Below, piece by piece: positions 5,987 through 29,191 of a DNA stretch of 64,000 bases. Source of the stretch: Phocaeicola coprophilus DSM 18228 = JCM 13818 (lineage in GTDB: Bacteria; Bacteroidota; Bacteroidia; Bacteroidales; Bacteroidaceae); contig NZ_EQ973643.1 of assembly GCF_000157915.1 (NCBI RefSeq), forward strand, positions 83,078 through 147,077. Direction: 5' to 3'. Each line of letters starts with the position of its first letter. Positions within the stretch are counted from its first letter, which is position 1. A program made the position numbers and the translations under genes. The notes below the pieces were generated by a model. That model was not told where the DNA came from and did not search any database. It saw only the letters and a list, made by a program, of their open reading frames with translations.

Positions 5987-7399
5987 TTAGTATATGTATT
6001 CCACCGGAGATTTAATAAAACGTATAATGCGGCTGTTTTCCTTTCCAATAGACTGACGTCTCAATCCGGGAGCATGGAACCAGCCGTTATTTTCAGGTGA
6101 ATAACAGGCTATCACAATCTTGTTATGGTTCACACCTCCTGATCCCCATTGTGCGCCAGGACCATAGAAAGTAACACATTCATCCTTTACTCCATTTGTT
6201 TTATTATACACCTCTGCATGGAACAGTTCCGGAAGTTGTACGTCCCCAACAAACAAATCTGTACGGCTTCCCGAAAGGGTATATACATGAGCGCGTCCTT
6301 CCCAGGGCGACTGTACCGTATAATAACCATCCGTCCGGTCAAAGCGCATTCCCCATCCTCCATTAAAGATACGGTCATAATATTCAATGGCAGGCATTTC
6401 ATACCCATCAGGAGCCAGAGCTTTAGCGTCGAGCTGGCCCATATTTACCGAGGGATTCTTCCAGCCACTCAGTTTCACCGTCCCGCCTTCTGCCACAGCC
6501 TCCATACCGATACCTGTATCTCCAATGTAGGCCGACCGGTTCCATAAACGCATATATTCATCGGGAGTACATGTGTTCAGATATTCCAGAACGGTCTTTC
6601 CGGCTTTCGCTGCAGGATCTTGAGGAACCAAGATCTGATCATCAAAGCTGCGGGAGTTTCCGATTGCATTGTATTTGCACCACCACACCCCATTCATTTT
6701 TGTAACAGGCAAGCCATAGTTTCTGCGCTTAATCTGATAGGATTCCGTTTCGTTACCGTCAGAAATACGGCGTACAACCAGTGTAGCCATCTGTTCCCGG
6801 CCGTCAGCTTTCGGGTCATTGGGACGCCATCCGCCGACAACACGATAAGTATTCGAACGGGCCGATACTTGTTCAACCTTTATCCAGGCATCTTCATTCT
6901 GAAAACGTGCAAGCAATTCATAACCCTCAGGAAGTGTCATACGCCCCAGTTCGTTATCTACATACCGGGCAAAGTCACACAAATAATCATCCTTTCCAAA
7001 TACAAGTTCACCTTCCAGCTGAATCGGATTGGCAAGTAACACGATTTTCAGGCTATCCTCATCGTATACACCCTGAAGTCCTTTCCGACGGAAGCGGACA
7101 AGCGCTTCTTCTTCGGGATATCCCGGAGGCAGCAAGGGCTTACGCAGACGGAAACGGTTGGCATCCTGCCAGGTAGTTTCTACAGGTTCTACGACAAAAG
7201 GCAATGAAGGGTCATTTATCCATTCCAGTTCGTTGTCACAATCAATCTGCAACTCAAAATCCAGGGCTGAAGCCGGAAGTGTCATTACATCCCGTCCACC
7301 ATTTACAGATACACCCTCAGGCAAAACCAGTGATTCTACATCAAAATGAATAGCACTATTCAGATCAGGTGTCAGCGCGATATCCCTTCTTTGTTCCAT
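5987..7399 (-). CDS. C-terminal adhesin-like domain (FISUMP-like), probably the 3' part of a frameshifted gene
   Basis: 470 aa with no signal peptide. It is clearly related along its whole length to residues about 300-755 of the neighbouring fused lipoprotein (9372-11639). Shared landmarks include SLVLPEGVS/GSVLPEGAR, GGWRPNDPKADGR/GGWKPNDPLADGR, IKRRNYGLPV/VKRRNWGLPV, GVWWCKYN/GTWWCKYN, SFDDQI/SFEDQV, APDGYEMP/APAGYEIP and the C-terminal IRFIKSPVEYIY/IRCIKTPVRYMY. The WW...N, GY.(I/M)P and terminal IRCIK blocks recall the Fibrobacter major paralogous (FISUMP) domain, a suggestion I cannot confirm. Its ATG lies inside the end of the upstream gene, 28 nt overlapping, in the -1 frame. Adding one G in the GGG run (CCC at 7384-7386 on the plus strand) joins both frames into one protein of about 755 aa. 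Translation as a separate cytosolic protein is possible but would leave an apparent surface domain unexported. Confidence 0.75.
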   Translation of the reverse strand: MEQRRDIALTPDLNSAIHFDVESLVLPEGVSVNGGRDVMTLPASALDFELQIDCDNELEWINDPSLPFVVEPVETTWQDANRFRLRKPLLPPGYPEEEALVRFRRKGLQGVYDEDSLKIVLLANPIQLEGELVFGKDDYLCDFARYVDNELGRMTLPEGYELLARFQNEDAWIKVEQVSARSNTYRVVGGWRPNDPKADGREQMATLVVRRISDGNETESYQIKRRNYGLPVTKMNGVWWCKYNAIGNSRSFDDQILVPQDPAAKAGKTVLEYLNTCTPDEYMRLWNRSAYIGDTGIGMEAVAEGGTVKLSGWKNPSVNMGQLDAKALAPDGYEMPAIEYYDRIFNGGWGMRFDRTDGYYTVQSPWEGRAHVYTLSGSRTDLFVGDVQLPELFHAEVYNKTNGVKDECVTFYGPGAQWGSGGVNHNKIVIACYSPENNGWFHAPGLRRQSIGKENSRIIRFIKSPVEYIY

Positions 7400-8241
7400 T
7401 CCTCAATTTCCAGACGAAGTTCTTCTGTCAGCAGTTCCTTTCTGACAGTCAGCGTATAAACCGTGTTGCGCTTCACGTCTTCCATCAGATATTCTTCCAA
7501 TGTATAGGAACGTCCCGCAATGGAAACATCTACACTTACCATCAGTTCGGGATTCTTCTGTTCATAGACATAAGCAACTCCCACGGAGTCTTTTTGAAGA
7601 GGAGCGGCAAACTCACAAACCCGGTCGTCCGAAGTAACATCTTCCGGAGAAGAAACTGCATTCTGCTCAAAAAGATATCCCTGTTGTCTGACATTCTTCA
7701 GAGTCAGGCGATGCACTGAAATTGCAGTTCCCCGAACCAATAGGTCAAAACGGGCAACGCCGCGTTTCATGTTCACCGAAAGAGTCTGTTTTCCCGATGT
7801 CAAAGAATCGAGTGAAACTTTTCCCGTCCAGAAAGGATGTGGCTGTCCGTTTTCTGAGGAAGCTGTCATCTGCAGCCACTCTTCTTCTGTTACCGACTGT
7901 GGCTGCAGATTATTCCAGTCAATTAACTGTTCTGTATCAGCCAGCATATATAGAGTCCCCGACAAACGATTTACCCCAAGAGAATATTCCAGATTGTCCG
8001 TTGTCTTCAAATCTTTGTAAACCTTCGTCAACAAACCGTTTTGAAACAAACAGGCTTTCATCTCTGAAACACCTTCTCCCGCACCGGCAGCTGATCCAGC
8101 TGAAGCAAAATCAGAAAAAACGCCACGCACCTTCAGTAAGGAAGTATCACCCTGTGACATGTCTTCTAAATGTTCAGCACAGGAAACCATCCCCAAAAGT
8201 ATCAATAAAAGTCCTATTTTAACAGAAAAGTATCTATACAT
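7372..8241 (-). CDS. FimB/Mfa2-like lipoprotein, probably the 5' part of a frameshifted gene
   Basis: 289 aa. A lipoprotein signal peptide ends in lipobox GMVSC (Cys21). The body shows the pattern of Bacteroidales fimbrial anchor/minor subunits: ACLFQNGLLTKVYKDL, LYMLADTEQLIDW, MKRGVARFDL and the terminal DVKRNTVYTLTVRKE strand. It is closely similar to the 8337-9248 protein and to the first 300 residues of the 9372-11639 protein. It ends at EEWNKEGISR, where the frame is lost; in the fused paralogue the corresponding W is followed by a linker into the C-terminal domain. The reading frame of that domain continues immediately (5987-7399) in another frame. It could also be a genuine short subunit like its 303-aa neighbour. 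Confidence 0.8.
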   Translation of the reverse strand: MYRYFSVKIGLLLILLGMVSCAEHLEDMSQGDTSLLKVRGVFSDFASAGSAAGAGEGVSEMKACLFQNGLLTKVYKDLKTTDNLEYSLGVNRLSGTLYMLADTEQLIDWNNLQPQSVTEEEWLQMTASSENGQPHPFWTGKVSLDSLTSGKQTLSVNMKRGVARFDLLVRGTAISVHRLTLKNVRQQGYLFEQNAVSSPEDVTSDDRVCEFAAPLQKDSVGVAYVYEQKNPELMVSVDVSIAGRSYTLEEYLMEDVKRNTVYTLTVRKELLTEELRLEIEEWNKEGISR

Positions 8242-8336: not shown

Positions 8337-9248
8337 TTATAGCGGAACAAGTTCCGTATCAGATCCCTGCTCCCATTCATCCAGAACAGGACGGGTTACG
8401 ATATCAATGTCATCTTTACGGATAGTAACAGTATAAATCGTATTACGTTTCAAGTCTCCTTCTATCAATTTACGCAAACGACGGGGAGATTCACCATCGA
8501 AACTGACAACAACTTCTACCTGTATTCCCTGATTTTCCTGCTCACCTAAATAAAGGACACCGGAAGCATCCTGGCTCAAAGGCTCATCGAATACCAAAGT
8601 TGTATCTGCACGCAAGGCACCTTCTGGAGTCTTTACTCCCTCTGATTGCGGGAAAAGATATGCAGAACGGGCAATACCTGACAGTGTTAAACTACTTAAA
8701 GATGCTGTACCTGCCACATTAAATTTCAAGTCCAGACGAGTCATTCCTCGTTTCAGATTTAATGGAAGTGCTCCGCCATTATCTGCATAGGTCTCTAAAG
8801 CTACTGATCCGACAGCATATCCGGCAGACTTTGAATCAGGCAATGCTACGACAGTCTTCAGCCACTCTTCCTCGGTCATTCCAGAATCCTGCAAATGATC
8901 CCAGTCTACCAATGCAGACGTATTTGCCAACATATACAAGTTACCTTCAGTCCGGTCTACTTGTAACGTACACTCATCGCCTGATACAGACAAGCCCCTA
9001 TAGACCTTTGTCAGAACTCCATCTTCAAACAGACATGCCTGCATGTCAAAGATCTCCGAATCACTTTCTACCGCTTGTCCCCCTCCATCAAATGCAACCC
9101 AACGAGCTGTTACAACCCGGGAAGCTATCTCTTCACCAGGCGACTGAGGTCCATTTGAATCGCTGGAGCAAGCCATAAACATTTGTGACAATAAAGCCAC
9201 AGAACCAATCATTAAACCTTTCTTAAAAACAAATCCCTTCAATTCCAT
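8337..9248 (-). CDS. FimB/Mfa2-like surface lipoprotein
   Basis: 303 aa. The signal peptide has lipobox FMAC (Cys27), followed by a Ser/Asp-rich tether. Family-like blocks: MQACLFEDGVLTKVYRGL, GNLYMLANTSALVDW, LKRGMTRLDLKF, ARSAYLFPQSEG and the C-terminal LKRNTIYTVTIRKD strand, ending at DEWEQGSDTELVPL. It is a stand-alone version of the N-terminal module seen in both neighbours, without the large C-terminal domain. Proteins of this kind sit in the outer membrane and anchor or cap type V (Mfa/Fim) fimbriae in Porphyromonas and Bacteroides; whether a fimbria is made here is unclear because no obvious major fimbrillin is present. AT-rich spacers of 95 nt and 123 nt separate it from its neighbours. 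Confidence 0.82.
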   Translation of the reverse strand: MELKGFVFKKGLMIGSVALLSQMFMACSSDSNGPQSPGEEIASRVVTARWVAFDGGGQAVESDSEIFDMQACLFEDGVLTKVYRGLSVSGDECTLQVDRTEGNLYMLANTSALVDWDHLQDSGMTEEEWLKTVVALPDSKSAGYAVGSVALETYADNGGALPLNLKRGMTRLDLKFNVAGTASLSSLTLSGIARSAYLFPQSEGVKTPEGALRADTTLVFDEPLSQDASGVLYLGEQENQGIQVEVVVSFDGESPRRLRKLIEGDLKRNTIYTVTIRKDDIDIVTRPVLDEWEQGSDTELVPL

Positions 9249-9371: not shown

Positions 9372-11639
9372 TTATTCATACATATACCGCACTGGAGTCT
9401 TAATGCAACGAATCGTACGAGTCTTGGACGAATTATTTGCAGCATATTTAATCCAGGACCTTCTTCCTCCTGAAGAATTAGCCGGATAACCTTCAATACC
9501 CCATGTCATGCCTTTTCGTCCACTGGTTGCAAACAAGGCTACCATACGAGATACAGATCCTTCTGAAGCATCCCACTGATGCCCCAAAGAAGCCATCACC
9601 CAATGGGAACCATCCGCTTCATGATAAAAGTCATAAACATTTACCGGTCCATATTCTTTTCCGTTTACAGTTAATATCCGTTCAGTGATCGTATACGACA
9701 AACGCTGTCCCAAGCCATTATCAAATGCATCAGAACCATATCCCAACGCACAGTCATTACCCCAGGCAAAGAAACGGAAATCATCATAATCCGGGATTTC
9801 ATAGCCTGCAGGTGCCATCGCACTTGCATCCATTGCACCAAAATCCTGAGCAGAGACAGAGAATCCTTCATACCAGAATCCATTATCACCTGACTGCAAT
9901 TTCAATCCCTGCAAATTTCCACCTTGATACTGATCGCCCAATAACTCCAGGAAACGTTCATTGCTACAAGTCAACAGATATTCTCCTAGCTGGTCTGCCG
10001 AAACCGGATCATCAGCAATTGTTACCTGATCCTCAAAACTCCGAACATTTCCACGCAGATTATACTTGCACCACCATGTACCATTTACACAGACGACAGG
10101 CAATCCCCAGTTACGCCGTTTCACTACATACGAATCCAGTTCTGAACCATCCGAGCCATAAATGACCAGTTCTACCTGTTGTGCACGACCGTCAGCCAAT
10201 GGATCATTGGGCTTCCATCCTCCTTCCAGAACAAATTCACTATCGGTTTCACCCGGGAATAACTTTGCCCAAGGATCTTCTCCTTCAGGTAAACGTAAAC
10301 GAAGTTCATAATCACCATCCAGCTCCAGATGAGCCAGTGTACCATCTGCATAAGTACCCAGGTCACATATTCCATCAGCACCGAATGATACACGCCCCTC
10401 TGTCACCTGCAAAGGATTACGATCAAAAGCCACGACAATGCGTCCTTCCTGTACCTCATCTGCCGAGAAATTCAGGTGAATAAATCCGCGTTTCTCCCCC
10501 GGCATACATTTCACCGATTCAATTTCAGCCATCGCGATGCGCTCCATTCCTTTTTGACGTTGATCTGCTTCAGTATCCAGTTCAACCCGGACTCCATCTA
10601 CATAACCATCTATCGAAGCTTGCAATCCGGATGTTCCGGCAATGGCTAGACGTATGACATTATTTTGGAAGGGTACAAACACCGTATCTGCATGCAGACT
10701 AAGGCGTGCTCCTTCAGGCAAAACCGAGCCACTTGCATCAACGTATACTTTCTGGGATACTTCCGGAGTTACCGGATCCGTTTCAATCCAGTCACTGGCT
10801 ACGACATCAAGAAAAGCCTGAGCTCCCATACCAAGTACCCGTAAGGTATACACCGTATTACTTTTCAGAGCCGGGACTTGTGTCCGTACCCAATGACGGT
10901 TACCATTGACCAGCAAAAGTGCTTCGATCTCTACAGGAGCCTCCAAGGGAGCTACAGGAAGATAGCGAAGTACACCACCTCCTTCAGGTAATGGCTCATC
11001 CGTCAGCTGACGTGTCCATGTCATTGTTTCACCAGGAGTTCCCACAGGTACTCCGTCTGAAGGGAAAAGCAAACCGTCTGCCGGTATTCCCCGCATCGTC
11101 ACACTCATCACTTCCACACCCTCAACAGGCATCATGAGATCCACTCTCGCCACACTGCGTCGAAGTTCCATGTTCAAGGTTTCCCCATGTCCGGCATCTT
11201 TCAGATCCACCTGTCCTCCCATCACAAAAGCTTCGGAGGTCAGCCCTTTCTCTCCCAAAGGCAGACTCAGGAACTCCTCCAGTGTAGTTACATCTTCTAC
11301 GGGATTCCGTCCGGCAAGTGTCTCTTCCCCATTGGCCAACAGGTAAAGCATTCCTCGCATCTGTCTTGGAGACAAAGAAGTCATACCCTCACCATCCGGC
11401 AACGAAAGATTCAGTACTTCACGCAGAGTTCCATCTTCAAACCGATAAGCTGTCAGTTCCTTCAGTTGTATGTTTTCTCCTGCATCCGAACTTCCGTCAG
11501 GAGTACGTGTAATCAGTGCCAGCCGTACTGTACCATCCGGCACAGCATTCATATCTCCTGCCTCATCTGTACAACTTACTCCAAGCAGAGTAACCATTGC
11601 TATTATTATCAGTTTTATCTCTTCAACCAGTCTTCTCAT
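9372..11639 (-). CDS. FimB/Mfa2-like lipoprotein fused to a large FISUMP-like domain
   Basis: 755 aa from the ATG at 11639 (MRRLVEEIKL..., preceded by AAGG). ATGs at 11660 and 11687 give 762 and 771 aa. The lipobox is LGVSC. The N-terminal module (about 300 aa) has LTAYRFEDGTLREV, RGMLYLLANGEETL, LRRSVARVDLMMPV and LKSNTVYTLRVLG. After the W at the module end comes a linker, then a domain with VLPEGARLSLHADT, GGWKPNDPLADGR, VKRRNWGLPV, NGTWWCKYNLRGN, APAGYEIPDYDDF and a terminal RTIRCIKTPVRYMY. Such architecture suggests an outer-membrane-anchored adhesin or fimbrial tip protein. It begins about 60 nt after the stop of the metzincin gene (11700), so the two are likely co-transcribed. This intact copy is the reference showing that the 7372-8241 / 5987-7399 pair is split. 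Confidence 0.82.
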   Translation of the reverse strand: MRRLVEEIKLIIIAMVTLLGVSCTDEAGDMNAVPDGTVRLALITRTPDGSSDAGENIQLKELTAYRFEDGTLREVLNLSLPDGEGMTSLSPRQMRGMLYLLANGEETLAGRNPVEDVTTLEEFLSLPLGEKGLTSEAFVMGGQVDLKDAGHGETLNMELRRSVARVDLMMPVEGVEVMSVTMRGIPADGLLFPSDGVPVGTPGETMTWTRQLTDEPLPEGGGVLRYLPVAPLEAPVEIEALLLVNGNRHWVRTQVPALKSNTVYTLRVLGMGAQAFLDVVASDWIETDPVTPEVSQKVYVDASGSVLPEGARLSLHADTVFVPFQNNVIRLAIAGTSGLQASIDGYVDGVRVELDTEADQRQKGMERIAMAEIESVKCMPGEKRGFIHLNFSADEVQEGRIVVAFDRNPLQVTEGRVSFGADGICDLGTYADGTLAHLELDGDYELRLRLPEGEDPWAKLFPGETDSEFVLEGGWKPNDPLADGRAQQVELVIYGSDGSELDSYVVKRRNWGLPVVCVNGTWWCKYNLRGNVRSFEDQVTIADDPVSADQLGEYLLTCSNERFLELLGDQYQGGNLQGLKLQSGDNGFWYEGFSVSAQDFGAMDASAMAPAGYEIPDYDDFRFFAWGNDCALGYGSDAFDNGLGQRLSYTITERILTVNGKEYGPVNVYDFYHEADGSHWVMASLGHQWDASEGSVSRMVALFATSGRKGMTWGIEGYPANSSGGRRSWIKYAANNSSKTRTIRCIKTPVRYMYE

Positions 11640-11699
11640 ATACCTTACATTCTTATTCATATAATACACCATCCATATCAGATCCATACAGACATCACT

Positions 11700-13559
11700 T
11701 TAACGATAGAGGGTCGCATTTGAGCTACTTTCCAGATATCGAGGTGAGTCTATCGGAAAATCTTTCAGATGAGTCACATAAAAATTATTCATCAATTGCT
11801 GCGCCCATGGTCCGTAAGTGAACGAACTGCTATGTGAATATCCCATCACATGGCCCAGTTCATGAAACATAATTTCGCAGGAATAAGTATTCCAATAATG
11901 CTGCAGCCATGCCTGCTGGTATGCACCGAAAGTAGATCCTCCTCCCAAACCGAGCACTCCATTTCCTGAATATACCAGTCCTACACAGAGTGTACGGCTC
12001 TGACGCATCTGTGCAAGTACTTTGTCAGCCGTTACCCGGTCTGTAGGTCCTCCGTTTCCATAAAGGATATCTTCATTTTCACGCAAAATCTGTTCATGTT
12101 CCGGCGTATCAATCATATAAGTAAAATTGAGGAACAATGCAATTGACTCCCTGCAATGGACAGGTCGAATTCCCATCCAGTTTCCTACAGGTCCTCCATC
12201 CGGACGGGTAGGATCACCGCCATAAAGTCCCCAATAAATGGTCCAGCCGTGACGAATGGCTCCCAGCTTTTCCCAATAAGGATCATCACTGTGCAGGCTG
12301 ATCTGAGCCTGTGCCATTTCTTCCGGATTCATACGTTCCCACTCAACCAATCTGCCACTGGCTGTACGGCACAGAGCAGAACGTTCAGCCAACGGCAATT
12401 CACGCTCCAGATCTACAAAAGGAGGAACAGTATCAAGATATGCTACATCAACAGCTTCCTCCTTTCCGGGGAAAAGAGCACGCACCGTTACCTTTCCCAA
12501 ACCACGGGGTGAATAGAAACGCATATGCAGTTTTCCTTCCGAAGTAATCTGTGTCTGCAAAGGATTTGAAGTATTAAAACTTCTTTGGGAACGATCTGTA
12601 TATACCTGCCAAGGCTCATCGTCTGCCAGAATCCGGGAAGTATGTACTTCACTGAAATCCGCTGAAGCAATATAAACTGCAGCCTGACGGTCATCCGGAT
12701 GCACCACCTTTGTCATTACCGGCACACTTACTCCGGCTTTCAATGACTCAAGGACAAAAGGATATTCCAGACAGGTACGTACTCCTAAAAAATGACGGGT
12801 TTCCACATCCACCGTACCTTCAGCATGAACAGCCGGATTCAAAGGAGGAAGTCGAAAAGCCGCTACACTATCAAGTGACAGTTCCAGATCCGAAGCTTCT
12901 CCATATCCACTCCATTCTCCGGAAGCAGACAAAGACGATGCCAGACTTAATCCTTGCAACTGAACCTTACGGGCCACTGCCATCCGTTCCACATCAGTCG
13001 AAGCAAAAGCAAATCCGAAAGACAATCTGCTACAAATCGGATACTGAACGATTTCTTCACTTGTAGTCACTTGTTCCTGTCCTCCACTGACCGTTACTTC
13101 CAGCGGGGTTGATGAATAATAATATTCAGCTTCCAGCGGAGCTACTTTTGCAGGGAAAGAAAACCATTCTTCATCTGCCCGTGACAAAGAATTCACCCGT
13201 ACACCATCACGGGAAATATCACCACGAACTCCCATTACCGACAGACGATAGCTTCCTTCATGAAGACCTTCCAGACGGAGTGATGAAGTATTGCAGTCGT
13301 AATTCCATTTTACCGAAGAAAGCACCAGACCACTTTCATCACAAACAGAAACAAAAAGAGTATCATAACCACCTCCGGCACGAGAAGCATTTTCCACATC
13401 TTCGGACAAACCTTCATAATTCATTGAACGCAACTGAAGTTTCACTCCCCCGTAGCCTGTCATGGAAGACATTGCAGTTTCTTCTTTACAGCCAGAAAGA
13501 ACAAGAATCAATAAAAATACAAAAACATGGATTTTCGACATAAATATCGGTTTCTTCAT
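11700..13559 (-). CDS. Lipoprotein with C-terminal metzincin-type zinc protease motif
   Basis: 619 aa. The signal peptide ends in lipobox LSGC (Cys24). Residues about 30-330 are beta-rich and resemble FimB/Mfa2-like modules (LRLEGLHEGSYRLSVMGV, SVPVMTKVVHPDDRQAAVYI). From about residue 340 a second region begins, with WTIYWGLYGGDP and the catalytic-looking MFHELGHVMGYSH: H566, E567, H570, G573 and H576 form a complete HExxHxxGxxH zinc site as in metzincins. A downstream Met (QQLMNN) could form the Met-turn. Only 43 residues follow H576, short but enough for a minimal metzincin C-lobe. First gene of the minus-strand cluster. Predicted location is the outer membrane, facing out or in. The peptidase assignment rests on the motif; the fusion with a fimbrial-type module is inferred from pattern. 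Confidence 0.8.
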   Translation of the reverse strand: MKKPIFMSKIHVFVFLLILVLSGCKEETAMSSMTGYGGVKLQLRSMNYEGLSEDVENASRAGGGYDTLFVSVCDESGLVLSSVKWNYDCNTSSLRLEGLHEGSYRLSVMGVRGDISRDGVRVNSLSRADEEWFSFPAKVAPLEAEYYYSSTPLEVTVSGGQEQVTTSEEIVQYPICSRLSFGFAFASTDVERMAVARKVQLQGLSLASSLSASGEWSGYGEASDLELSLDSVAAFRLPPLNPAVHAEGTVDVETRHFLGVRTCLEYPFVLESLKAGVSVPVMTKVVHPDDRQAAVYIASADFSEVHTSRILADDEPWQVYTDRSQRSFNTSNPLQTQITSEGKLHMRFYSPRGLGKVTVRALFPGKEEAVDVAYLDTVPPFVDLERELPLAERSALCRTASGRLVEWERMNPEEMAQAQISLHSDDPYWEKLGAIRHGWTIYWGLYGGDPTRPDGGPVGNWMGIRPVHCRESIALFLNFTYMIDTPEHEQILRENEDILYGNGGPTDRVTADKVLAQMRQSRTLCVGLVYSGNGVLGLGGGSTFGAYQQAWLQHYWNTYSCEIMFHELGHVMGYSHSSSFTYGPWAQQLMNNFYVTHLKDFPIDSPRYLESSSNATLYR

Positions 13560-16906: not shown

Positions 16907-18511
16907 TTAAAGCTTCATCACATCCTGTTCAAAATGATCTTTGTCGCCTTTAGCCCGATTCCGCATTTTACTCCGGTAACTGTAAACGGTTGCCAGGGAA
17001 TATCCCAGAAAATGAGCGATCTGTGTCGTATCAGTTACTCCCAGTCTAATCAATGCAAATATACGAAGTTCGGTATTCAACAACTCATGAGGTTTTGGAT
17101 AGATTCTTCCGTCTTCTACCAGCAAGAGATTGAAATCCTCCACAAAATTAGGAAACAAGTCCAAGAATGATTTATCAAATTCCCCATAGAATTTTTTCCG
17201 TTCATCGCGTAAGAACTGTTCCGAACGGATCATCTTAAACAATTCATCAATTTTGGAAGCCATTGCCAGCTTTTCCAGCAAACGACGATAGTGTTCCAGC
17301 TTCTCCAGATAGCTGACGCAACGTTCCAGATAACGCACGATATACACTTCTTTAATCTTGCCGGTCTGTTCCAACTGATCATTGACTACCTGCAGTTCCC
17401 GGTTAGCTGTATAAAGTTCCTTTCGCATGGCAGAAAGCTTTCTCATCCAGATCCATAGCCAACTCAACAGCACGATCAGCATAACGGCAAGCACACTCAC
17501 CAGCAATAACATCCGGTGCATCATCAGTCGCTCACGGTTTTCCTTGGCCACATAAGCCCGGTCTATAATCGGATAAAATTCGGTAACCTCCAGGAAACGA
17601 AGGCGTGCATTACAGGCCACGGCATCTTCCATCGAACAGTTCAGATAACGATAAGCCCTTTCCAGGTCTCCCTGTTCATAAAGCAGACGAGCCAGACGTT
17701 GCAAGGCTGCATATTCACGGACTGCAGTTTTCAAATCCAGAATAGCAGTCTGAGCCAGCCAATATATCCGGTTCTCTACATCTCCCAAAGCATCATAAGC
17801 ATCCGATAAGGTATAATATACATAAATCTTCTGCTGTTTAGCCGGCGATTTTTCCAGGCATCCGGTCAACAGACGGACTGCACTGTCTGCCTGATGATGA
17901 AGAATAAGCCGTTCAGCCTTCATGATAGTCTGATCAATCTCTGAATCCATCATCTTCAATACAGAGTCACGATATAAATCTGTCCGGTCCAGATACTTCT
18001 TCTTGCCTTCTGCTTCGGGGGTATAATCGGCCATCCAGCCTTCAATCCGCTTACACACACCATAATAATATGCCAGTACTGGTTCTTCCAGTTCCTGTAC
18101 ATTCACATTATGCAGTTCCTGTAAAGCTTCAAAATACATTCCCATCACTCCAAGAACTTCTGAACGGTTGATCAGGATTCCTGCTTTTGATCCAAGAGCC
18201 GGATCGGCAGCCAGACAAGCCGCCTTTTCATTCAAATAATGCAAGGATGAATCAGCCTGATAATGCAGATATTCTATAAACAAGGAATCACACAAAAGAT
18301 ATTTCCGGCCAGGATCCATCGTTTTGTGCAACCGGTTTTTCAGCATCCGGATGCGAGTTTCCCTCTCTCCCTGCCAGACAGCCTTCTGTGAAATCGTCTG
18401 ATCCAGCTCTGACAGAATACGAAGATTCCGTTCCGACATAGCCGGAAGAAAAGACGGACAAAAAGACAAAACTGCCAATATCAGAATATATAAGTGTTTT
18501 CTACCTTCCAT
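16907..18511 (-). CDS. susR: SusR-like membrane-spanning transcriptional activator of the starch locus
   Basis: 534 aa from the ATG at 18511; the longer frame begins with TTG at 18553. A signal-like segment (LYILILAVLSFCPSFLPA) leads into a periplasmic region of about 300 residues with TPR-like helical repeats. A single membrane helix follows (LLLVSVLAVMLIVLLSWLW, roughly residue 335-355), then a coiled-coil stretch and a C-terminal cytoplasmic helix-turn-helix (LIRLGVTDTTQIAHFLGYS, then YSYRSKMRNRAKG). This is the arrangement of SusR of B. thetaiotaomicron, which senses maltose-type sugars in the periplasm and activates sus genes. Its position divergent from susA supports the name. It is expected to activate the susA promoter just across the 230-nt gap. 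Confidence 0.9.
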   Translation of the reverse strand: MEGRKHLYILILAVLSFCPSFLPAMSERNLRILSELDQTISQKAVWQGERETRIRMLKNRLHKTMDPGRKYLLCDSLFIEYLHYQADSSLHYLNEKAACLAADPALGSKAGILINRSEVLGVMGMYFEALQELHNVNVQELEEPVLAYYYGVCKRIEGWMADYTPEAEGKKKYLDRTDLYRDSVLKMMDSEIDQTIMKAERLILHHQADSAVRLLTGCLEKSPAKQQKIYVYYTLSDAYDALGDVENRIYWLAQTAILDLKTAVREYAALQRLARLLYEQGDLERAYRYLNCSMEDAVACNARLRFLEVTEFYPIIDRAYVAKENRERLMMHRMLLLVSVLAVMLIVLLSWLWIWMRKLSAMRKELYTANRELQVVNDQLEQTGKIKEVYIVRYLERCVSYLEKLEHYRRLLEKLAMASKIDELFKMIRSEQFLRDERKKFYGEFDKSFLDLFPNFVEDFNLLLVEDGRIYPKPHELLNTELRIFALIRLGVTDTTQIAHFLGYSLATVYSYRSKMRNRAKGDKDHFEQDVMKL

Positions 18512-18656
18512 TATCTTTAAGATTTTCTTTACAAATATAAAGAATAAATCCAAAAGGCTCTTTTCAGATCTTCAAAAACTTTAGATTTCATTTATATAAT
18601 CGCATGCTATAAAAAGTGGTAATCATTTATTAAACAACATGTTAACAAATTTATAA

Positions 18657-27710: not shown

Positions 27711-27754
27711 AAATCTCCCCGGCTTTGAAAAAACAAAGACAGCCGGGGAGATTT
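27711..27754 (+). terminator. Strong terminator closing the susABCD unit
   Basis: Perfect 14-bp stem: AAATCTCCCCGGCT (27711-27724) with AGCCGGGGAGATTT (27741-27754), followed by CTTTCTCTCT. Confidence 0.85.
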
Positions 27755-27818
27755 CTTTCTCTCTCATGGTACATTCCCCCAAGAAGCAGGTACACATTCC
27801 GGCAGCAGTGCGTTTATG

Positions 27819-27835
27819 TGATAAAACCTTTATCA
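27819..27835. repeat. Inverted repeat just upstream of the 27848 gene
   Basis: TGATAAA (27819-27825), ACC, TTTATCA (27829-27835), ending 12 nt before the ATG. Its position overlaps where ribosomes or polymerase would bind, so an operator or a start-masking hairpin are both possible. Confidence 0.5.
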
Positions 27836-27847
27836 TTACAGATACAC

Positions 27848-29191
27848 ATGAAAAGACTAGCGTTACCCTGCTTATTCTCTGTCTTCCTCATCCTGTTGTC
27901 TGCTGCGTGCAGCGGCTATATGCCGGACGAAGATGAGGAAACATCTGCAACCGAAACCTCGGAATGTCACCTGCAACTGGCCGTCAGAAGTACTGACGAA
28001 GTAAAAATCAACTATCCGCTTTCCGTATTCCTGTTTGATGACACGGGCGAACTGGTGCTTCAGACCGAAGTATCTGATGCAGAAACTCCTTTCACTCACA
28101 GTCTCAATAAAGGAGAATACATCCTCTCAGCCTTTTCCGGCCTGAGCGAAGATGACTTCACGCTGCCGCTGGAACCGTTATCCACCAGCTATCTCTCCAT
28201 TAAGGAACCCATGAACAGCCGGCTCCCACTGATGAGCGGACAAAGCCGGATCCAGCTGAAACAGCCTACGGAAGTCACACTCACTCTAAGTTATGTCGTG
28301 TCAGCCCTGCAATTCTCTTTCACAGGTATTCCGGCCGATGCTACGGAAGTCAGTCTTCAGGTCTCTCCCGTAAGTACAGGATATTCCTTCGATGGCAATT
28401 ACAAAGAAGATACAGATGCCTGTTCCGTAAGTTGCTCATTGAAAGAAAATGTATGGACAGCAGGTCCTGTCTACGTACTTCCTTCCACCTGGTCAAAAGC
28501 CCACCTGTCCATCACCGTAACCCGTCCCGGCAAGAACGAAACCTACAGCTATACCTATGCTGAATCGCTCAGCCCCGGCCAACCTTACAACTTCAGTGGC
28601 AGTTATTCCGAAGGAGTCAGTCTGGAAGGAAACTTCGAGATAGAAGGATGGAAACCGGCTGTCGATATAGAATTTGATTTCAGTACAGGGGACGACAGTG
28701 ATACGGAACAGCCGGAGGAACCGGAAGAAGGAGAAAATCCTCCTCTGTCTGGTGACGGAGTACTTTATGCTTCTTCACTGCCGGAAGCCAACTCGATCTG
28801 GGAGGACTACTATGTATGGAAAACAGAGCCGGCAGGAAACAATGCGGTCAATGCCATTCTGATAGCACCCGAGCAATGGTATGAACTGGCTATTGACGGA
28901 ATGGAGCGACTCGAAACGTATGAAATCAACGGACTGACCGACTGGCGTGTGTTTACGGAGACAGAGGCTAGAGAATTAATTCAATTTCTGCAAGGAGCTA
29001 CCATTGAAAGCTTAAATGAACTGTTAAGTCAGGCTAGTATGGATCAAATCCTTTATACCAAAGAAGAACGTTATCTATGTGCCGAAGGAAACAAATCATT
29101 TTGCCTTAAAACCAAGACCTGTACCAACATCGGAACTAAAACAAACTACTATCTCCGCCCAGTAAAAACCGTTTGCATCAAGCTAAAATAA
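27848..29191 (+). CDS. FimB/Mfa2-like surface lipoprotein next to the sus locus
   Basis: 447 aa from the ATG at 27848 (MKRLALPCLFSVFLILLSAACSG, lipobox SAAC). A TTG-initiated frame from 27725 would run across the terminator arm and is rejected. The N-terminal 300 residues are beta-rich with fimbrial-anchor-like features (LSVFLFDDTGELVL, LNKGEYILSAFSG, FNFSGSY-like end, IEGWKP). A Glu/Pro-rich linker (EQPEEPEEGE) leads to a Cys-containing C-terminal part ending YYLRPVKTVCIKLK, which faintly recalls the ends of the 9372-11639 protein. It occupies the place where susE would be in B. thetaiotaomicron but does not look like SusE (no starch-binding module recognised). It is separated from susD by a terminator. 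Confidence 0.7.
   Translation: MKRLALPCLFSVFLILLSAACSGYMPDEDEETSATETSECHLQLAVRSTDEVKINYPLSVFLFDDTGELVLQTEVSDAETPFTHSLNKGEYILSAFSGLSEDDFTLPLEPLSTSYLSIKEPMNSRLPLMSGQSRIQLKQPTEVTLTLSYVVSALQFSFTGIPADATEVSLQVSPVSTGYSFDGNYKEDTDACSVSCSLKENVWTAGPVYVLPSTWSKAHLSITVTRPGKNETYSYTYAESLSPGQPYNFSGSYSEGVSLEGNFEIEGWKPAVDIEFDFSTGDDSDTEQPEEPEEGENPPLSGDGVLYASSLPEANSIWEDYYVWKTEPAGNNAVNAILIAPEQWYELAIDGMERLETYEINGLTDWRVFTETEARELIQFLQGATIESLNELLSQASMDQILYTKEERYLCAEGNKSFCLKTKTCTNIGTKTNYYLRPVKTVCIKLK

Follow-up and report, generated by a model that had tools for sequence, protein, structure and literature searches.

Gene arrangement at the locus

The window (the whole stretch of DNA that was analysed, 64,000 nucleotides) carries on its minus strand, at 11700-13559, the focal gene P0001, which encodes a protein of 619 aa. 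The sequence-only reading had placed the gene correctly; it is read from the minus strand, and the plus-strand frame there is riddled with stops. We found P0001 in a single copy in the source genome (4.04 Mb). Downstream on the same strand lie P0002, P0003 and P0004/P0005, which are relatives of one another. The features are listed below; type I denotes relatives with the architecture of P0001, and types II and III are two other architectures of the protease family.

11700..13559, minus strand: focal gene P0001, 619-aa lipoprotein (stop codon included; single copy)
13488..13559, minus strand: signal peptide and lipobox LSGC24, residues 1-24, followed by acidic K-E-E (from the sequence; partial likeness to the lipoprotein export signal)
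12672..13487, minus strand: N-terminal module, residues 25-296, with a tentative FimB/Mfa2-type (type V fimbrial anchor) fold (Foldseek, VIA, hhalign)
13380..13382, minus strand: Arg60 (S-R-A), a possible processing site in the predicted beta1-beta2 loop (motif in type I proteins)
12240..12638, minus strand: beta-rich part, residues 308-440, common to the protease family including 9tpb, an Ig-like sandwich in the model (profile, model)
11703..12239, minus strand: metzincin-like catalytic part, residues 441-619 (profile match; most conserved part)
11832..11864, minus strand: zinc-binding HELGHVMGYSH, residues 566-576 (sequence; family conservation)
11802..11831, minus strand: Met-turn region, residues 577-586, with Phe580 opposite the Met of 9tpb, HomA and type III relatives (alignment)
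9372..11687, minus strand: partner 1, P0002, 771-aa lipoprotein lying 12 bp downstream of the focal gene, with an Mfa2/fimbrillin-like N-terminal part and a C-terminal part that may be akin to Fib_succ_major
8337..9248, minus strand: partner 2, P0003, 303-aa lipoprotein, fimbrillin-like (profile comparison)
7372..8241, minus strand: first piece of partner 3, P0004, 289 aa, with an Mfa2 domain over the Pfam cut-off
5987..7399, minus strand: second piece of partner 3, P0005, 470 aa, in another frame with a 28-base overlap with P0004; one gene in most relatives

The lipobox that had been read at Cys24 is present as LSGC24, as expected of a surface-exposed Bacteroidota lipoprotein. Export consensus sequences described in passages of PMC5080379 are C-X-K-(D/E)2 in C. 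canimorsus and SDDDD in B. fragilis. The C-K-E-E of P0001 is acidic and matches neither of them exactly; its Lys stands one position early relative to C-X-K-(D/E)2, and the same passages state that the position of Lys within the consensus matters. Because acidic residues follow the lipobox Cys, export of P0001 to the cell surface is plausible, and surface exposure can be regarded as supported though not proven. Searches of P0001 against Pfam and NCBIfam returned sub-threshold matches only, all around the zinc site (Matrixin 0.025, Reprolysin_3 0.15, CpaA 0.089).

The C-terminal part is homologous to a deposited metzincin

Near the C-terminus, the HExxHxxGxxH site of the metzincin clan is intact, as had been claimed, and reads HELGHVMGYSH at residues 566-576; for a protein as long as P0001 and with its composition, such a motif has a chance expectation of 6e-5. 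It is invariant in 31/31 rows of the family alignment, P0001 included. This alignment covers the 34 genomes with a match in the window's family apart from four that had no locus there, with one further locus (L002) added. Among 35 gene calls of the family, again counting the window, 34 contain the motif. The 35th is a split type II gene (L062, 5999-8357), whose zinc motif lies on the second piece (L028).

The homology extends well beyond the motif. A single-sequence phmmer search aligned residues 313-582 of P0001 with the solved protein 9tpb (2.2e-10), and the profile of the C-terminal part (31 rows) matched 9tpb in the PDB at E 1.4e-30, followed by HomA at 3e-5. Serralysins, myroilysin and MMPs gave weak matches at the zinc site, from 0.0097 upwards. 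The homologous unit already begins at about residue 309, far ahead of the zinc site, and consists of a beta-rich part followed by the catalytic part. 9tpb and 9tpc (labelled 'metallopeptidase' and 'metzincin') and HomA (9tpy, 9tp2) are homologous to P0001 over residues ~309-591 and share its zinc site and beta part; by this homology over the protease unit, P0001 belongs with the 9tpb-like metallopeptidases, a family without a name. The 9tpb chain (356 residues) leaves no room for the N-terminal module of P0001. No paper on the P0001 family, HomA or 9tpb was found among the matches listed in searches of the literature on HomA, 9TPB and Bacteroides metzincins, as far as the parts of the sources at hand go.

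These matches bear out the proposal of a metzincin-like C-terminal domain, and we infer that residues of about 308-619 form a metzincin-type zinc endopeptidase with predicted activity. Structural modelling of this part used a two-row alignment (the window and L002), and gave a mean pLDDT of 55, with the zinc region under 50. Foldseek with this model found nothing under E 0.001, and in VIA the matches lay chiefly over the Ig-like part, at Z no higher than 6.1. Metzincins were absent from the 50 matches listed by each of Foldseek and VIA, which is uninformative either way. The homology to 9tpb instead argues for His ligands that converge in a metzincin fold.

In metzincins the third His is followed by a Met in a tight turn (PMC12197655, PMC11266112). 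At the aligned position P0001 has Phe580, whereas 9tpb and HomA have Met. Across 34 family genes the residue is Phe in 28 and Met in six, so that the Met-turn Met appears to be replaced by Phe in P0001, which is unusual for this position. Met590, conserved at 90% or more, might serve as an alternative Met-turn residue.

Relatives, architectures and selection

We sampled 399 genomes of the window's family, and 34 of them gave a match to the protease family. Judged by query coverage and by gene calls, the latter made with a simple longest-ORF method, 23 of them are type I, seven type II and four type III. Type II proteins (~780-810 aa) carry Mfa_like_1-like and BACON-like parts, sub-threshold in the two proteins tested, ahead of the protease; one of the seven genes is split. 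Type III proteins (~690-700 aa) consist of the protease followed by a different tail, which looks propeller-like. Both have neighbours of their own: another same-strand partner in 7/7 type II loci (the one tested, in L057, is an Mfa2 protein over the cut-off, at 25.9 bits), and another small lipoprotein adjoining in 4/4 type III loci, absent beside a plasmid copy in Parabacteroides distasonis.

This type III plasmid copy (L086, 7887-9947, on NZ_OY725756.1; WP_121956186.1, annotated as hypothetical protein) was the one record with a relative in the plasmid scan, and is flanked by genes for a glycosyltransferase and a shikimate kinase. The scan of viral contigs gave no relative of P0001, and that of genome contigs one confirmed locus, L002, in a Bacteroides MAG. 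L002 and the gene content together suggest that the window comes from a Bacteroides or a close relative. Among 395 genomes of the phylum 12 had a match, and ten of these fall in a different family within the same class (tag f6 g36), which we take to be Chryseobacterium-like bacteria. Four of these relatives were inspected; they are ~400-430 aa long with little beyond the homologous protease unit. At the Met-turn position the ten relatives from the class have Leu in nine cases and Phe in one (12 loci, two genes appearing twice).

Conservation of P0001 rises along the chain. Mean identity to 22 type I relatives is 29.5% in the N-terminal module, rising to 47% for the beta part and 71% for the catalytic part. 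With the signal peptide left out, dN/dS over seven close pairs, two of them with dS near or over 1, was 0.03-0.12 for the C-terminal part and 0.07-0.32 for the N-terminal part. The protease gene, its intact zinc motif included, is therefore under purifying selection, and together with the identity gradient these values indicate that the enzyme is kept while the stem varies, as expected for a surface-facing docking module.

The N-terminal module has a tentative fimbrial-anchor fold

The N-terminal part had been described as beta-rich and similar to FimB/Mfa2 proteins. It is beta-rich in a model of low confidence, and the FimB/Mfa2 likeness holds tentatively as a fold, not as membership of the Pfam family. 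In the Pfam HMM check against Mfa2, P0001 gave no match, and thus did not reach the curated cut-off of PF08842; among 23 type I N-terminal modules a single one matched, at E 0.19. DUF6075 was matched by 4/23 of them (best 6e-4). By sequence, the N-module profile found no solved structure in the PDB up to E 5, and its comparison with the profiles of its own partners was negative or very weak (prob 0.3 and 3.4). With hhalign, it aligned to an Mfa2 profile at prob 55 and P 1.2e-4 over 50 columns. That profile was built from 19 Mfa2 proteins of the genus, the seven of 26 left out being the longer ones (424-448 aa); as controls, the protease part reached prob 0.1 and the partner profiles 91 and 94.

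We used structural comparison as an additional line. The AlphaFold2 model of residues 25-303 was made from two sequences and has a mean pLDDT of 45, fair only in parts of the first sandwich (~residues 38-175). Against the whole PDB, Foldseek returned 3gf8 as the sole match under E 0.001 (E 2.1e-4, prob 1.00), at TM 0.36 and rmsd 11.5 over 248 columns. VIA was led by 4qdg (Z 8.4, 3.3 A over 126), 5nfi, which is Mfa2 (Z 7.9, 3.2 A over 122), 3gf8 (Z 7.8, 3.2 A over 118) and 3r4r (Z 7.2, 3.2 A over 116); FimA, 3pay and Mfa4 followed at Z 5.6-5.9, with unrelated proteins from Z 5.6 down. Even models without a true match usually have a top Z of ~7 to 8. The result nevertheless counts for an anchor fold, because the leading rows are all of one family: 3gf8, 4qdg and 3pay are putative Bacteroides anchors, and the leading rows 4qdg, 5nfi and 3gf8 are known or putative anchors (passages of PMC5789003).

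Since several lines point the same way, each of them weak alone, a fimbrial-anchor-type fold is likely, tentatively, for the N-terminal module, as a relation of fold and not of Pfam membership; it is supported rather than proven. The type V anchors that are its best fold matches (5nfi, 3gf8, 4qdg; PF08842) are lipoproteins like P0001. P0001 differs from them in falling below the Pfam model, in being fused to a protease and in the conserved Arg between its predicted strands 1 and 2.

A conserved Arg in the predicted beta1-beta2 loop

A motif of the form [STVGN]-R-[ASTQNL], formulated after inspection of the type I sequences, occurs 6-11 residues before predicted strand 2 in 23/23 type I proteins. 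In the alignment, the Arg column is occupied in 22/23; the exception is P0001 itself, where R60 is shifted by about four residues towards the C-terminus. No other Arg column within the N-terminal module reaches a conservation of at least 90%. In the partner proteins the best Arg columns of the N-terminal stretch reached only 7/10 and 7/28, and the best combined Arg/Lys columns 10/10 (column 15) and 16/28 (column 24), the latter two near the N-terminus and probably within the signal peptide.

Arg residues at this place have a known role in P. gingivalis. Mfa1, Mfa3 and Mfa4 begin after Arg49, Arg43 and Arg54, respectively, the cut being at the start of the beta1-beta2 loop and, in Mfa3, directly after strand 1; known fimbrillin processing is by gingipains, after Arg, and the anchor Mfa2 has no processing Arg site and stays uncut (passages of PMC5789003). 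The conserved loop Arg of the type I proteins would be more in keeping with a processed fimbrillin of the tip or shaft than with a plain anchor.

Fimbrillin-like partners adjoin the protease gene

A same-strand partner gene adjoins the protease gene in 24/24 type I loci, directly downstream in 23 and directly upstream in one (L066). The suggestion that P0001 leads an adhesin-like operon was borne out by these adjoining fimbrillin-like partners. P0004 scores 22.8 bits against Pfam Mfa2 (cut-off 21.2). For the long partners, we aligned 28 of 41 sequences, hand-picked mostly by dropping close relatives, together with the P0005 piece; the short-partner alignment contains 10 of 11, the dropped one being a C-terminal piece. 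The long-partner profile matched the solved Bacteroides protein 3up6 at 5e-5. Within the 29-member alignment P_gingi_FimA was matched by 4/29 (best 4e-4) and Fib_succ_major by 2/29 (best 0.0053). Fib_succ_major is matched by two distant partners, those of L066 (3.9e-17) and L056 (0.0053). P0002 resembles the L066 partner over its fimbrial part (E 2e-20) and marginally over its C-terminal part (E 0.28). Because so few members reach Fib_succ_major and the match of P0002 to L066 is marginal there, the C-terminal parts of the partners can only tentatively be called Fib_succ_major-like (adhesin- or lectin-like).

Split partner genes recur in L002, L046 and L070, with the breaks at different positions, which with the window makes 4/24 type I loci. 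This recurrent breakage may reflect decay, on/off variation or assembly error.

In a survey with 38 candidates scored, fewer than some genomes had, the partner family was found in 11/11 type I genomes, most of which had also contributed rows to the query profile, in 2/11 protease-less members of the genus, as partial matches, and in 0/6 type II/III genomes. The partial partner genes of the two protease-less members (G112 C15:53528-54622 and G261 C63:16519-16914) look as if the operon had been lost. One type I genome has four more partner-like genes clustered on a separate contig (G149 C10:816235-822509), where no protease match was found. Beyond the partners, no flanking gene cluster was common to more than three type I loci.

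Elsewhere in the window, outside the operon, an ORF at 27725-29191 on the plus strand contains a Pfam Mfa2 domain at 28004-28654 (62.5 bits, above P0004), and a SusR-type regulator lies near it at about 16907-18553. For the promoter motif TANNTTTG the window has 41 matches where 37.5 are expected, so the count is uninformative. Inverted repeats upstream of the focal gene are short (9-20 nt), and we claim no invertible promoter.

Interpretation and alternatives

The reading we prefer, to which we give about an even chance, is that P0001 is a surface lipoprotein whose anchor-fold module docks among the partners and whose metzincin part cuts an extracellular protein held by them. P0001 would sit as a lipoprotein at the surface of the outer membrane, its N-terminal module (25-296), with the fold of a type V fimbrial anchor, docking it among the co-encoded lipoproteins. 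These partners, with their fimbrillin-like N-terminal parts and tentatively lectin-like C-terminal parts, would bind an extracellular target and hold it near the cell, where the metzincin part (about 308-619) would cut it. The complex with the partners and the activity and substrate of the protease are all predictions. A mucosal glycoprotein is a fair guess for the substrate, since gut metzincins that cut O-glycoproteins exist (PMC9513282). We cite the O-glycopeptidases OgpA and AMUC_1438 of Akkermansia only for this plausibility; they were not among the PDB matches of the C-terminal part, and the passages of PMC9513282 on them describe no fimbrial linkage. Counting against the preferred reading are the negative Pfam and PDB sequence searches with the N-terminal module and its near-absent profile match to its own partners, the low pLDDT of the two models and the poor TM and rmsd of the 3gf8 match, as well as the Phe at the Met-turn, the loop Arg, unfit for a plain anchor, and the offset Lys in C-K-E-E.

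The loop Arg is the main reason for keeping another reading, in which the N-terminal module is a processed tip-type fimbrillin and the protease is borne on a filament. A trypsin-like protease would cut after the Arg, removing strand 1 and the lipid, and the metzincin would be built into a type V fimbria and carried to its tip, away from the outer membrane, among adhesin-like partners. The motif in every type I protein, its weaker counterparts in the partners and the starts of Mfa1, Mfa3 and Mfa4 after Arg, set against the uncut anchor Mfa2 (PMC5789003), all favour such processing. However, the closest folds of the module are anchors rather than tip proteins; the operon has no clear shaft subunit, the P_gingi_FimA matches of the partners being weak; passages of PMC5789003 report no trimming of the tip protein Mfa5; and the Arg lies deeper in the loop than in Mfa3. 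It may also be structural, the cleavage being putative, and we regard the filament-borne protease as rather unlikely. If the partners themselves were the substrates, P0001 would be a maturation protease that trims the lipoproteins encoded beside it, or fimbrillins from other loci of the genome, and so enables assembly. Their close linkage speaks for this. Against it, the partners have no well-conserved Arg in the expected stretch (a comparison of Arg only), known processing after Arg is by gingipains and not by metzincins (PMC5789003), and other partners accompany types II and III. We consider this role very unlikely.

The order of signal peptide, N-terminal part and metzincin also resembles that of fragilysin, the B. 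fragilis toxin (BFT), which has a signal at 1-18, a pro-domain at 19-211 and a cut at Arg211-Ala212 (PMC12197655). Like P0001, fragilysin is a Bacteroides metzincin-type zinc protease behind an N-terminal part (PMC12197655), and by analogy the module could be an inhibitory pro-domain, with a cut after Arg60 or between the modules freeing a soluble protease. We consider such a zymogen distinctly unlikely. The module is absent from type III and f6 g36 relatives, and type II has a different one (Mfa_like_1-/BACON-like), so that across the family as a whole the protease can do without it, both for folding and for restraint. Unlike fragilysin, P0001 has a conserved operon with fimbrillin-like partners, and no BFT chain appeared among the 51 PDB matches of the C-terminal profile at E up to 1. 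The Phe in 28/34 family genes could instead mark a pseudo-enzyme, in which catalysis is lost and the domain binds a ligand, and protease C with the Met-turn Met changed to His, Ser or Asn was indeed too unstable to isolate (PMC1266349). MMP-2 with Leu or Ser at this position showed minor effects, however, and protease C with Leu, Ala or Ile gave compromised yet isolable enzymes, Phe not being among the substitutions in the passages of PMC1266349 on these two proteins. The catalytic Glu and every zinc ligand are retained under purifying selection, and loss of catalysis is highly improbable.

Significance

Zinc proteases and fimbrial folds of these kinds are already known. What is new is the fusion of a protease to such a stem together with a conserved partner operon, the Phe at the Met-turn and the Arg in the stem. 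Bacteroides are known for the capture of glycans at their surface, and toxigenic B. fragilis for a metzincin toxin. If active, the P0001 family would be a class of proteases tethered at the cell surface, and the fusion may represent an unstudied means of holding and cutting proteins there. The fimbrial module and its Arg make a testable question of whether a type V fimbria can carry an enzyme.
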